Source of the DNA: Gemmata sp.
GTDB lineage: Bacteria; Planctomycetota; Planctomycetia; Gemmatales; Gemmataceae
Direction: 5' to 3'
DNA length: 64,000 bases
Assembly: GCA_025055115.1 (NCBI GenBank)
Contig: JANWYJ010000087.1
Coordinates: 1 to 64,000, forward strand
Part shown: positions 20,354 to 24,344 of the stretch, piece after piece
How the letters are laid out: every line of letters starts with the position of its first letter
How positions within the stretch are numbered: the stretch's first letter is position 1
Notes under the pieces: generated by a model
The model's database searches: none
The model's input: only the letters and a program-made list of their open reading frames with translations
What the model was told of the DNA's origin: nothing
Position numbers and translations under genes: made by a program

Positions 20354-21652
20354 GTGAAACTTCCGCTGATTCAGCTGGTTCGTCAAACCGCTCCGCAGCC
20401 GGTGGTGGCGGATGTGGCCGGGGAAGTGCGGCGGCAGTGGCTGCATTCCAAAACCGCGGCTCGTATCCGTCCAGGGATGCGGATTGCTGTCGGCTGTGGC
20501 AGCCGCGGCATCAACAACTATCTGACGATCACCCGGGCCACAGTGGCGGCTCTCCAAGAACTGGGGGCGCGGCCGTTCATTGTGGCGGCGATGGGGTCTC
20601 ACGGTGGCGCGACCGCGGCGGGTCAACGCGAACTGCTCGCTAGTTACCATATCGACGAAGCCCATCTGGGCGTACCGGTGGTGACGGATATGGAAGCGGT
20701 CAACATCGGTACCAATTCCTGGGGCCAACCGGTCTGGTGGGACAAAAACGCTCTGGCGGCTGATGGCGTTGTCACGGTGTCGCGCGTCAAACCCCACACG
20801 GATTTCCGCGGCCGTTTCGAAAGCGGCATTCTCAAAATGCTCGTCATCGGCCTGGGCAAGCAACGGGGGGCGGACCAGGTGCATAGCTTCGGAACTCGCG
20901 GCCTGCGCGATATGATTCCCGAGTCGGGCCGCGTGATTCTCGAAAAGACTCGGTTCCTCGGCGGGCTGGCCATCCTGGAGAATGCCCACGAACAAACCGC
21001 TCATGTCGAAGTGATCGACCGCGACGATCTCTACGACCGCGAACCCGTGTTGCTGCAACAAGCCGCCCAGATGATGGGGCGCTTGCCCTTCAAAGGTATG
21101 GATGTGCTGATTGTGGGCGAATGCGGCAAAAACTACTCCGGGGCTGGACTCGATCCCAACGTCATTGGGCGCATGCTGATTGAAGCAACACCAGAAGCCG
21201 AAACCAACGATCCGCGAATCGTTCGCATCGCCGTACTCGATGTGTCGCCGGAAAGCCACGGCAACGCCACTGGCATTGGCTTGGCCGACATCACCACCAC
21301 TCGGGCGCTCAACGCCATCGATCCCATCCCCTTCAAGATGAACAACTTCACCGCCCGGTCGCTGTGGCGCAGCAAACTCCCCTTTGCTTTCGACACTGAT
21401 CGCGAAGTGATCGAAAAATGCATCGAAACCTGCTGGCAGCCCGATTACGACGCGGTCAAACTTGCTATCATCCCCAATACGTTGGAAGTGGCGGAAATCT
21501 GGGTTACTGCCCCGCTGGCCGCGGACGCTCAGGAGCATCCGCACCTGGCATTGGTTGGCGAACCCATCCCCATCCCGTTCGACGCCCACGGAAATCTGGT
21601 GCAGGAAAAGCTCTTTCCCCACTGTGTTCGAGCACGCCGTTCTCACTCCTGA
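20354..21652 (+). CDS. LarA-like (nickel-dependent lactate racemase family) protein
   Basis: 432 residues from a GTG start at 20354 with only a weak ribosome site. The N-terminal half resembles the DUF2088/LarA domain: VAVGCGSRGINNYLTITRA-like nucleotide/cofactor segment, AAMGSHGGATAAGQREL, and VSRVKPHTDFRGRFESG. LarA racemises lactate with a nickel-pincer cofactor; many relatives have other or unknown substrates, and no larB/C/E genes are adjacent, so the reaction is not assigned. The final residues (CVRARRSHS) are encoded by a repeat that recurs 103 bases downstream, so the native C-terminus may have been rewritten by repeat insertion. Confidence 0.75.
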   Translation: MKLPLIQLVRQTAPQPVVADVAGEVRRQWLHSKTAARIRPGMRIAVGCGSRGINNYLTITRATVAALQELGARPFIVAAMGSHGGATAAGQRELLASYHIDEAHLGVPVVTDMEAVNIGTNSWGQPVWWDKNALAADGVVTVSRVKPHTDFRGRFESGILKMLVIGLGKQRGADQVHSFGTRGLRDMIPESGRVILEKTRFLGGLAILENAHEQTAHVEVIDRDDLYDREPVLLQQAAQMMGRLPFKGMDVLIVGECGKNYSGAGLDPNVIGRMLIEATPEAETNDPRIVRIAVLDVSPESHGNATGIGLADITTTRALNAIDPIPFKMNNFTARSLWRSKLPFAFDTDREVIEKCIETCWQPDYDAVKLAIIPNTLEVAEIWVTAPLAADAQEHPHLALVGEPIPIPFDAHGNLVQEKLFPHCVRARRSHS

Positions 21653-21773
21653 CGGAAAAGGCTCTGTCACTGACGGTTCATTCCCCTCGTGCGTCTCGGA
21701 GAGGAGCAACAACACCGCCACGTGAAGTGTTCGAGCACGCCGTTCTCATTCCTGACGGAAAAGGCTCTGTCAC
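21624..21773. repeat. 47-bp direct repeat spanning the LarA-like stop codon
   Basis: Copies at 21624-21670 and 21727-21773 begin GTGTTCGAGCACGCCGTTCT and differ at one base. The first copy contains the gene's final codons and TGA. Confidence 0.92.
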
Positions 21774-21831
21774 AACTACACTGGCGAAGTTCTATGAGAT
21801 GGCTTCGTCATCGCTGAACCGGAAGCGAAGA

Positions 21832-22063
21832 CTCTGTCACGATGGCACTCCGGCTCCAGCTTGGCCTCGGTGCCATCCCTCGTCATCCGAGGTCAAGGGA
21901 AAGGCTCTGTCACGATGACACTCCGGTTCCTGCCTGCCGTTGTCGCGCGTCGTATCCTGTACCGCGATGGGAAGTCCATGTCGCCGCGTGTCGGACCCTG
22001 TCGGACCCTGATGCGGCAATCGGGAGTCGATGTCGCTGACCGTCCAACCCTGTACCGCGATGG
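21832..22063. repeat. Further direct repeats downstream of the LarA-like gene
   Basis: A unit beginning CTCTGTCACGATG occurs at 21832 and 21905 (offset 73); its first half is shared with the 47-bp repeat upstream. CCTGTACCGCGATGGG occurs at 21956 and 22049. The interval is non-coding; apparent short frames change with each copy. Confidence 0.75.
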
Positions 22064-22142
22064 GGGTAAGATGAGGAGCGTTGTGACTTGGGTCGTTGCC
22101 AGGTGATCACCGCGTACCGTGGCTATGGGCTGGATGTATCAC

Positions 22143-22222
22143 CTGGATGTAGCGCGGAGCGATGTATCGGCTGGATGTAGCGCGGAGCGATGTATCAGCT
22201 GGATGTAGTGCAGAGATACGGG
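22143..22222. repeat. 28-bp tandem repeat, about three copies
   Basis: The unit begins CTGGATGTAGCGCGGAGCGA; copies lie at 22143-22170, 22171-22198 and 22199-22222 (degraded), with a partial copy from 22130. Copies 1 and 2 differ at one base. Confidence 0.9.
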
Positions 22223-22367
22223 TGGGACGAATTCCACGGGACGCGGCGGGGATTTCGGTCGTTGCCGGGTGATCCGTTCACCTCGCTCCACAGTGTTCGA
22301 TGGTCCAGATGGTGCGTTTCAATCGTAGGATGACGTGGCTTATGGCGATGCTGGCGTCTGGCAGCCC

Positions 22368-22481
22368 GGTCACTGGCACGGTCGTTGTTGCTTAAGCCAA
22401 TCGAGACGGTTCCAAGCCGAAGAGCAAGCCAAGCTGCAAGAGGGGTCACTGGCACGGTCGTTGTTGCTTGAGCCAATCGAG
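22368..22481. repeat. 38-bp direct repeat pair, offset 76
   Basis: Copies at 22368-22405 and 22444-22481 begin GGTCACTGGCACGGTCGTTG and differ at one base. A flanking element (ATGGCGATG.TGGCGTCTGGC) also occurs on both sides, near 22342 and 22494, so a longer ancient duplication is likely. Confidence 0.9.
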
Positions 22482-22542
22482 TGCCGCAGCTCATGGCGAT
22501 GTTGGCGTCTGGCCGCGGTGGCGATGTCGACTTTTGGCGAAA

Positions 22543-22558
22543 TGTTCCACGTGGAACG
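22543..22558. promoter_or_regulatory. parS: parS-like ParB binding site
   Basis: TGTTCCACGTGGAACG contains the perfect 14-bp palindrome GTTCCACGTGGAAC. This matches the conserved chromosomal parS core (GTTnCACGTGnAAC) bound by ParB/Spo0J for origin segregation. It is the only such site I found in the window and lies in a 1.3 kb gene-free region. parA and parB are not in view, so binding is inferred from sequence alone. Confidence 0.75.
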
Positions 22559-22940
22559 TCGGCGAATGTTAGAATGTCGCGCCGAAGTGCTGGTAGTTAT
22601 TGAACATATGAATATACCAGGTTTTTCCTGGGGTTTAGGATGCGGGCGAAAATGCGCAAAAAGAAATCGCCCATTCCCAACGAAAATATACAAAAGTATA
22701 CATGCCGTCAACCTGGTCTGCACCGACTCTGGATAGTTTCCTATGATGTGTTTCCATTTCATGTGCTTCCTTTTTCTGCTTCTATTTCTTCATGTGCTTC
22801 TGTTCCATGTGCTTCCTTTGCACAGGGTTGCATCTTATTGTTCATATGAAATTTTGCTCATTTGTTCCTGGGGCATTTCTGCAGGGTTGCGTGCTGTTCG
22901 AATTTCTATTAAGCTGTCATATTACTGTCTGTGATGATGA
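22559..22940. other. AT-rich gene-free tract beside the parS-like site
   Basis: Visibly richer in A/T than the rest of the window. It contains CATGTGCTTC three times (22760, 22791, 22806), a small hairpin CCAGG-TTTTT-CCTGG near 22617, and two related ACATATGAAT / TCATATGAAA segments. I found no consensus DnaA box. The end must hold the promoter of the protease gene. Confidence 0.55.
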
Positions 22941-24344
22941 ATGCCCATGAAAACGTTGTGCCCCTTCTGCCAGGTGGAGTTGCAGCCGGCCGGCGCCAAG
23001 GCCGGCCCTGGGCTGAGGTGTCCGAAATGCCAGCGGATGTGGACTTCTGCAGAAGCCCAGAATCATGTCGCCGTTGCGGCTGCAGCTCCGACGACTGCCG
23101 TCAAGCAGGTGATCGCCTGCCCCCGGTGTGCCATTCGTTATGCGGTTCCGACGACGGCGGGGGGGCGTTCGCTCACCTGCCGGAAGTGTCGTAATCCTTT
23201 CAAGATTCCCACCGTGCGGGCCATTTATCAGCCCACACCAACGAGCCGAGGACTGCCGGTCCGCTGTCGTTACTGTGGCCGAGGGTTTTCCGTGCCACAA
23301 AGTGCCATGAATGAGTGGACAATGTGTCCAGGGTGTTCTGTTGTCGCGATCGCCGTGGCAGCGCAACCCGTGGCGTCTTCGCCACCTTCACAACCGCCAC
23401 CTTCACAGCCGCCATCTATACAGCCGTCGGTTCTTGAGTTGGACGACCTTCCGGAGGTATCGGTTTCACCACCGCCATCGACGATGTCTTTATCCTCGAA
23501 CGACAAGGAGGGAGCGGACGACTTCACCGCGCGTTCTTCGGTTAATCCCCACCTTGGTCAATTACCGATGCCGTGGTTGATTGGATTGGGTGTAGTTGGT
23601 TTTGTCGTGCTTGCGATGAGTGTGGCCATTTATTTCGTCATCCAATCGACTTGGTCGCGGCAGTCGGCTCGCTCGTTGGTGGCGAGCACGCCTTTGAGCG
23701 GGGAAGAACTGTATCCGCGGCTGGTTCGCGGAACCGTGTTGATCGCCTCCCCACAAGGAATGGGGAGTGGATTTATCGTAGATTCAGTTAATCGTTTGGT
23801 CATTACGAACTACCATGTGGTTGGTCGTCAGAAACGGGTGACAGTGGTTTTCCCGATCTACGATTCGGCGGGTACACTTATCACGGATCTCAAGAGCTAT
23901 GAGTCTCACATCCAGAATACCGCATTGCGAGGAAACGTTCTGGCGGTCGATCCGAAACGCGATCTGTGCTTAATCCAAGTGGAGCAGTTGCCGACACGGG
24001 CCGTGTCTGTGCCACTGGCCGAACATCCGGCGAAACCGGGGGCGGTGGTTTATTCTGTGGGCGGTTCAGGAGCCGGCGACAACTTGCTGTGGCGGTTGAC
24101 GAAAGGAACTGTCCGTGGGCGTGTTCAGCGTCAGCAATTCGCGGACTTTGGTTCTATCGATTGTATGATTTTGGAGACCGATGCACCGGTGAATCCGGGC
24201 GACAGTGGCGGTCCGGTGGTCAACGACCGCTGTGAGCTGGTCGCAGTGGTGTCGCACCATCGTTTAGGCAATCGTCTGGTCAGTGGCAATATCGACGTCG
24301 AGGAGGTGCGGCATTTCCTCCGCACCCATTCCTCGCGGCGTTAG
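22941..24344 (+). CDS. Zinc-ribbon, membrane-anchored trypsin-like serine protease
   Basis: 467 residues. The cytoplasmic N-terminus has three MJ0042-like zinc ribbons: Cys7/10/27/30, Cys60/63/80/83 and Cys109/112/129/132. A Pro/Gln-rich linker follows to about 180, then one membrane helix (211-234, WLIGLGVVGFVVLAMSVAIY). The external part is a trypsin-like HtrA/DegP-type domain with the triad His292 (ITNYHVV), Asp341 (DPKRDLCLIQV) and Ser422 (GDSGGPVV). No PDZ domain follows. It would couple cytoplasmic metal or nucleic-acid sensing to proteolysis outside the membrane (inference). A second ATG two codons in is an alternative start. Confidence 0.88.
   Translation: MPMKTLCPFCQVELQPAGAKAGPGLRCPKCQRMWTSAEAQNHVAVAAAAPTTAVKQVIACPRCAIRYAVPTTAGGRSLTCRKCRNPFKIPTVRAIYQPTPTSRGLPVRCRYCGRGFSVPQSAMNEWTMCPGCSVVAIAVAAQPVASSPPSQPPPSQPPSIQPSVLELDDLPEVSVSPPPSTMSLSSNDKEGADDFTARSSVNPHLGQLPMPWLIGLGVVGFVVLAMSVAIYFVIQSTWSRQSARSLVASTPLSGEELYPRLVRGTVLIASPQGMGSGFIVDSVNRLVITNYHVVGRQKRVTVVFPIYDSAGTLITDLKSYESHIQNTALRGNVLAVDPKRDLCLIQVEQLPTRAVSVPLAEHPAKPGAVVYSVGGSGAGDNLLWRLTKGTVRGRVQRQQFADFGSIDCMILETDAPVNPGDSGGPVVNDRCELVAVVSHHRLGNRLVSGNIDVEEVRHFLRTHSSRR

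Follow-up and report, generated by a model that had tools for sequence, protein, structure and literature searches.

Dispersed composite parS cassettes in Gemmata and their possible role as chromosome-wide ParB loading sites

A parS core within a composite cassette

The window, which here denotes the entire analysed stretch of 64,000 nucleotides, belongs to contig C91 (125,563 bp) of a Gemmata-type planctomycete draft genome (G000; 4.93 Mb, 100 contigs, 98% complete). The gap between an ORF that ends at 21652 and the trypsin-like ORF that begins at 22941 contains the perfect 14-bp palindrome GTTCCACGTGGAAC, an exact parS core, at positions 22544-22557; in 64 kb, chance alone would not be expected to produce an exact 14-mer of this kind. 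The first-pass annotation had reported a perfect parS palindrome in a repeat-rich gap between genes; the palindrome and the gap are both real, and only the ends of the palindrome, which had been placed at 22543-22558, have to be moved inward by one base. The 16-mer TGTTCCACGTGGAACG agrees with TGTTCCACGTGGAACA, the proteobacterial parS consensus, at 15 of 16 positions. The gap holds 12 families of short direct repeats, chiefly to the left of the parS site; those at 21.6-22.5 kb seem to have arisen by local duplication and lie outside the parS cassette (approximately 22523-22703), which consists of the following parts:

22523..22537, + strand: left arm GATGTCGACTTTTGG (family consensus GATGTCTAYTTTTGG), kept to the left of dispersed sites in two genomes
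22544..22557, no strand assigned: parS core GTTCCACGTGGAAC, a perfect palindrome with low mismatch compared to adjacent positions
22558..22567, + strand: 10-nt linker GTCGGCGAAT of fixed length; in five genomes, almost all sites that carry the box have its start 10 nt past the core
22568..22579, + strand: second box GTTAGAATGTCG, present at dispersed and parB-proximal sites; among 297 genomes of the class, its combination with parS at fixed spacing was found in this genus only
22600..22614, + strand: spacer motif TTGAACATATGAATA, recognised by column conservation in 20 and 48 copies
22683..22703, + strand: right arm AAAATATACAAAAGTATACAT, which carries A-tract repeats and has the opposite orientation to the left arm

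The dispersed copies, oriented on their flanks, share one architecture of approximately 145-190 bp, in the order T-tract left arm, parS, exactly 10 nt, the box GTTAGAATGTCG, spacer motif, and A-tract repeats phased at 10 bp. Almost every match to the left-arm motif in the source genome falls within a cassette, and the right arms of dispersed copies carry CAAAAGTAGACAT-type repeats; in the right arms of the sister MAG G017, ACAAAA units are spaced by 10 bp in 23 of 30 cases and by 20 bp in 4 of 30, as expected for phased A-tracts. A search for parS and box together (allowing up to 3 mismatches) found the pair in 7 of the 297 class genomes, every one of them in this genus, and a search of viral contigs for the exact composite gave no match. 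At +10, the box likewise follows the parB-proximal cores in G000, G017 and G001, and one of the four in G004; this shared feature ties the dispersed cassettes to the partition locus of the host. It recurs after many dispersed cores in G001, G004 and G015, where the outer flanks are otherwise different.

Several other repeats and genes were observed around these sites. The dense direct repeats at 21624-22540 of the window (a 28-nt tandem triplet, and pairs of 47 nt and 38 nt) are unrelated to the parS family. The trypsin-like zinc-ribbon gene to the right of the site (22941-24344) is intact, and the syntenic place in the sister genome (L259, 9720-9948) matches it as a fragment only. Outside the window, at approximately 96.67 kb of contig C91 (L179), there is a second, decayed cassette with the core GTTCCTTATGGAAC. 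G004 and G001 (L210, L211, L067, L070, L216) contain a different parS-bearing repeat in which parS is followed by GTTGTTTGTCGCTACGAA.GT..GAAACAAG.

Copy number, constraint and ancestry

The exact 14-mer is present in 24 copies in the source genome, four adjoining parB and 20 dispersed as single sites, and in 48 copies in G017 (three at parB and 45 dispersed single sites); the reversed control pattern is absent from both genomes, both of which are drafts. Of the G017 assembly, 82.6% consists of contigs on which one or more perfect dispersed sites are located. When perfect and imperfect dispersed sites are taken together (52 sites in G017), nearest neighbours are at least 10.4 kb apart, gaps below 8 kb are absent (0 observed vs. 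4.3 expected, p = 0.0065), and site density is more variable than chance (p = 0.028). Elsewhere in the genus, where genomes are mostly larger, 0-4 sites were counted in each genome, apart from G001, G004 and G015 with 9-16.

For 43 classifiable G017 sites, gene gaps were classed with a simple codon-usage gene caller, so that the calls are heuristic; 26 sites fall in convergent, 14 in tandem, and three in divergent gaps, compared to a background of 14.5% convergent and 27% divergent gaps (convergent excess by base pairs, binomial p = 3e-13). The cassettes avoid promoter regions; this convergent bias would be expected both under selection against ParB spreading over promoters and under simple tolerance of a repeat. 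Cassette orientation relative to local GC skew (13 to 25) is not significant by itself.

Constraint on the core was assessed in copies that had been collected by linker and box only (up to 3 mismatches), with the core inspected afterwards; candidates that matched the core at fewer than 8 of 14 positions were discarded as non-elements, and the parB-proximal copies were retained in the G017 set. Of the 54 G017 cores, 47 are perfect, and mismatch per core position is 1.6%, vs. 26% in the 8 bp on the left side of the core and 34% in the spacer; the source genome has 19 perfect and 14 imperfect cores among 33, with a mismatch of 9.3% vs. 29% and 34%, respectively. Since core mismatch is low in copies ascertained without reference to the core, the core is the best-kept part of the cassette, strongly so in G017 and moderately in G000; the conservation of linker and box in this set is partly built in by the search.

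The site neighbourhoods of G000 and G017 share approximately 80% nucleotide identity, and for most G000 sites a cassette occupies the same gap in G017. Across 15 orthologous pairs with perfect cores on both sides, identity is 27% (unaligned) in the unalignable flanks 30-150 bp left of the core, and 53% in the spacer; in certain other pairs the core is perfect in one species and decayed in the other. The counterpart of the window in G017 is the syntenic region C1:275-305 kb, where the cassette has decayed to GTTTCACATGGCAC, 10 nt, and GTCAGAACGTCA; the alignment runs without gaps across core, linker and box, and none of 500 shuffles reached its score. Sites also persist beyond this species pair: parS occurs in orthologous gaps of G017 and G004 (L077 with L214; L088, together with L014 of G000, with L212), in an orthologous gap of G000, G017, G001, G004 and G015 at the L199/L023 locus, and one G004 site corresponds to a site at 2.27 Mb in the closed genome G002. 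In the ParB tree, the groups G000+G017 and G001+G004+G015 are supported, and the remainder is unresolved. Because parS gaps are orthologous across species, the dispersal has an old and at least partly shared origin. The two flanks of the cassette L007 match different sister loci (L110 and L082), each with a cassette of its own, which suggests a rearrangement breakpoint at or near L007.

ParB and the candidate function of the dispersed sites

A chromosomal ParB, which the first-pass annotation had presupposed as the reader of this site, is indeed encoded once in the source genome (TIGR00180, E = 1.5e-52), with the domains ParB_N, HTH_ParB and ParB_C; its gene and the adjacent identical cores lie on a separate contig:

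C33:46807-47340: parB, TIGR00180 match
C33:47833-48081: four parB-proximal parS cores, exact 14-mer

The Gemmata ParB is of canonical type; it contains the GERR motif, its closest solved relatives are chromosomal ParB/Spo0J proteins, and its N-terminus carries the motif RLARGLNALLGD, which we take to be typical of ParBs that contact ParA. A parA gene was not among the six tested neighbours of parB. R230 and G258 are the equivalents of R173 and G201, which read parS in Caulobacter, and the equivalents of Caulobacter K171, S172 and R204 differ (L228, D229 and K261); R and G at the two positions of R230 and G258 give a ParB its specificity for parS instead of NBS (PMC7383237). A full-length SMC of 1203 amino acids is encoded approximately 2.4 kb from a parS site in G017.

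As judged from sequence comparison, the site in the window probably belongs to an ancestral set of dispersed composite parS sites that is predicted to load ParB and SMC throughout the chromosome, in a layout resembling that of Noc. In every cassette, the chromosomal ParB would load onto parS as a CTP clamp; the box at its constant distance and the A-tract arms with their helical phasing would bind a further protein and/or bend the DNA, and might in this way help ParB loading or confine its spreading; loaded ParB would then recruit SMC at many points of the chromosome. The presumed benefit to the cell would be chromosome-wide anchoring or compaction, with sites laid out like those of Noc and served by an ordinary ParB and ordinary parS. 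Extended to a clade of Gemmata, the proposal that an ordinary ParB acts as a chromosome-wide organiser, with dozens of composite cassettes in convergent gaps as predicted ParB/SMC loading sites, is offered tentatively. Some observations run against chromosome-wide loading. Many sites decay, as in the imperfect G000 cores and in the G017 orthologue of the window's site, which retains no intact core; single sites are therefore dispensable. The arms resemble terminal inverted repeats (TIRs) and would fit a mobile origin. Caulobacter and Pseudomonas show little tolerance of parS sites that lie far from the native cluster (PMC5815017, PMC7333895), and SMC collisions are the presumed result of scattered loading (PMC8357415).

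The Gemmata sites resemble conventional chromosomal parS sites (ParABS; GTTCCACGTGGAAC / GTTTCACGTGAAAC type) in their identical 14-bp core, a single canonical ParB, and three to four cores beside parB in G000 and G017; they differ in that most of them lie far from parB, with 20-45 dispersed sites per genome, and in that the core forms a unit with A-tract arms and with a second box at a constant distance. An origin-proximal location, which is usual for parS although not defining, does not apply to most of them. Known high parS counts, up to 20-23, are found near the origin (PMC7333895). With Noc, which has about 70 NBSs in Bacillus subtilis (PMC4331003), they share a set of single palindromes that numbers in the tens and extends over most of the chromosome and, if the predicted binding is correct, a ParB-family system; yet the Gemmata site is parS, the ParB residues R230, F236, S241 and G258 stand against Q, K, K and R in Noc, and the terminus side is not clearly spared. 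Scattered parS sites are restricted to few lineages (PMC8357415); those of Bacilli likewise include multiple parS outside one tight cluster, whereas the Gemmata sites extend over most of the assembly and form a genus-specific composite cassette. The half-parS sequences of Pseudomonas aeruginosa, among them GTTCCAC, are scattered ParB targets (PMC10419367); the predicted ParB targets of Gemmata are similarly spread through the genome, but consist of full palindromes in conserved cassettes, not 7-mers.

In the open-licence papers searched, no report of dispersed parS sites in Gemmata was found. parS has been described as located almost exclusively near the origin, with extra sites in Caulobacter and Pseudomonas tolerated within about 500-650 kb of the native ones (PMC5815017, PMC7333895); a natural counter-example to this origin-proximal rule would be provided by a lineage whose chromosome carries 20-45 conserved, single and widely spread parS sites. 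If the dispersed sites act as proposed, the rule would be broken, and it would become testable how cells deal with numerous loading points for ParB and SMC. With its highly condensed nucleoid (PMC3440768) and division by budding (PMC2656463), Gemmata is a fitting place for such sites, and the fixed-spacing box points to a further partner of ParB.

As the main rival, which we consider rather unlikely, the cassette would descend from a non-autonomous MITE-like repeat, mobile in the past, which picked up a parB-proximal parS together with the right flank of that site and multiplied in an ancestor; parS may have been retained because bound ParB does no harm or benefits the repeat, and the sites would now be inherited passively in permissive convergent gaps. 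Like MITEs and REP-type repeats, the cassettes are short, dispersed members of one family with subfamilies, many copies have inverted, TIR-like ends ATGTCTACTTTTG...CAAAAGTAGACAT, some have decayed cores, and they are enriched in convergent gaps away from promoters, as are many tolerated repeats. In contrast to such repeats, they occupy orthologous positions and are not insertion-polymorphic, and their functional-looking core is much better kept than the ends; no autonomous partner was found, as a motif search of G000 (up to 1 mismatch) returned nearly only cassettes, and no longer element with the same ends. By eye, target-site duplications were not seen in the flanks listed, and the copies are old. 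In G001, G004 and G015, moreover, parS and box occur at dispersed sites that lack the cassette repeat. The MITE-like origin accounts for the inverted ends and the multiplicity, but neither for the differential constraint nor for a box that is shared outside the repeat. It can be combined with chromosome-wide loading, if the cassette spread as a repeat and was later kept as a set of centromere-like sites. A recent mobile element was rejected on the orthologous positions and on the lack of an autonomous copy in G000, and a phage or plasmid origin on the absence of the exact composite from viral contigs and of any plasmid match.

It is improbable that the cassette serves in regulation or is itself transcribed, be it as a binding site for a transcription factor, as a promoter repressed by ParB, as a terminator or as a small RNA. 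Its orientation, intergenic position and conserved spacer motifs would suit such a function, and a TAGAAT within the box would suit the ParB-repressed promoter; yet divergent gaps are depleted (3 of 43), and neither a promoter nor a terminator was called over core or box. Promoter and terminator were rejected on this result, and an RNA element was rejected given no covariation (term 0.25 kcal/mol), a fold z-score of -1.1, and no Rfam match.

Position relative to the replication origin

According to the first-pass annotation, the window's site is a canonical origin-proximal parS, and the window therefore might lie close to oriC; the suggested GC-skew check shows a window without the skew minimum, parB resides on C33 and not on the window's contig, and the cores are dispersed over most of both assemblies. 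In the closed G002 chromosome (mapped in 40 sampled 20-kb stretches, one of them all N), the genes 2-6 kb left of the window's site correspond to 1.80 Mb, and the neighbours of other cassettes to 2.25, 3.83, 4.28 and 7.2-7.65 Mb; these positions are approximate because of rearrangements. The match at 4.28 Mb is a collinear gene run near the maximum of the coarse sampled cumulative GC skew, and the site neighbourhoods map all around the chromosome. Decayed parS-box composites were not found in the sampled G002 stretches.

The perfect parS sequence does speak for an origin-proximal window, as does its glutamine synthetase gene, which is found at 659 kb in G002 (parB-proximal parS at 63 kb), at 786 kb in G008 (parS at 57 kb), and 633 kb from parS in G012; its distance to parB in these three genomes is 0.6-0.73 Mb, on chromosomes of 9-10 Mb. 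Proximity to oriC is nevertheless very improbable, with cores on contigs that cover 83% of the sister assembly, the genes beside the site at 1.80 Mb in G002, and those of another cassette close to the sampled skew maximum; as an inference from the window's site it was rejected on dispersal, skew, and mapping in relatives. Since the cassette neighbourhoods are dispersed in the closed relative, the window's parS is no evidence for oriC; its own distance from the origin we infer from relatives only.

The full dnaA gene lies approximately 0.28 Mb from the start of the closed G002 sequence, and in both drafts on a contig other than that of parB, which is shared by gyrB and a short DnaA paralogue. 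This paralogue, which consists of the ATPase and the C-terminal domain (L264, 4363-5262, and L256), is located near parB and gyrB, and it is with this paralogue that the sequence records of the closed relatives begin.
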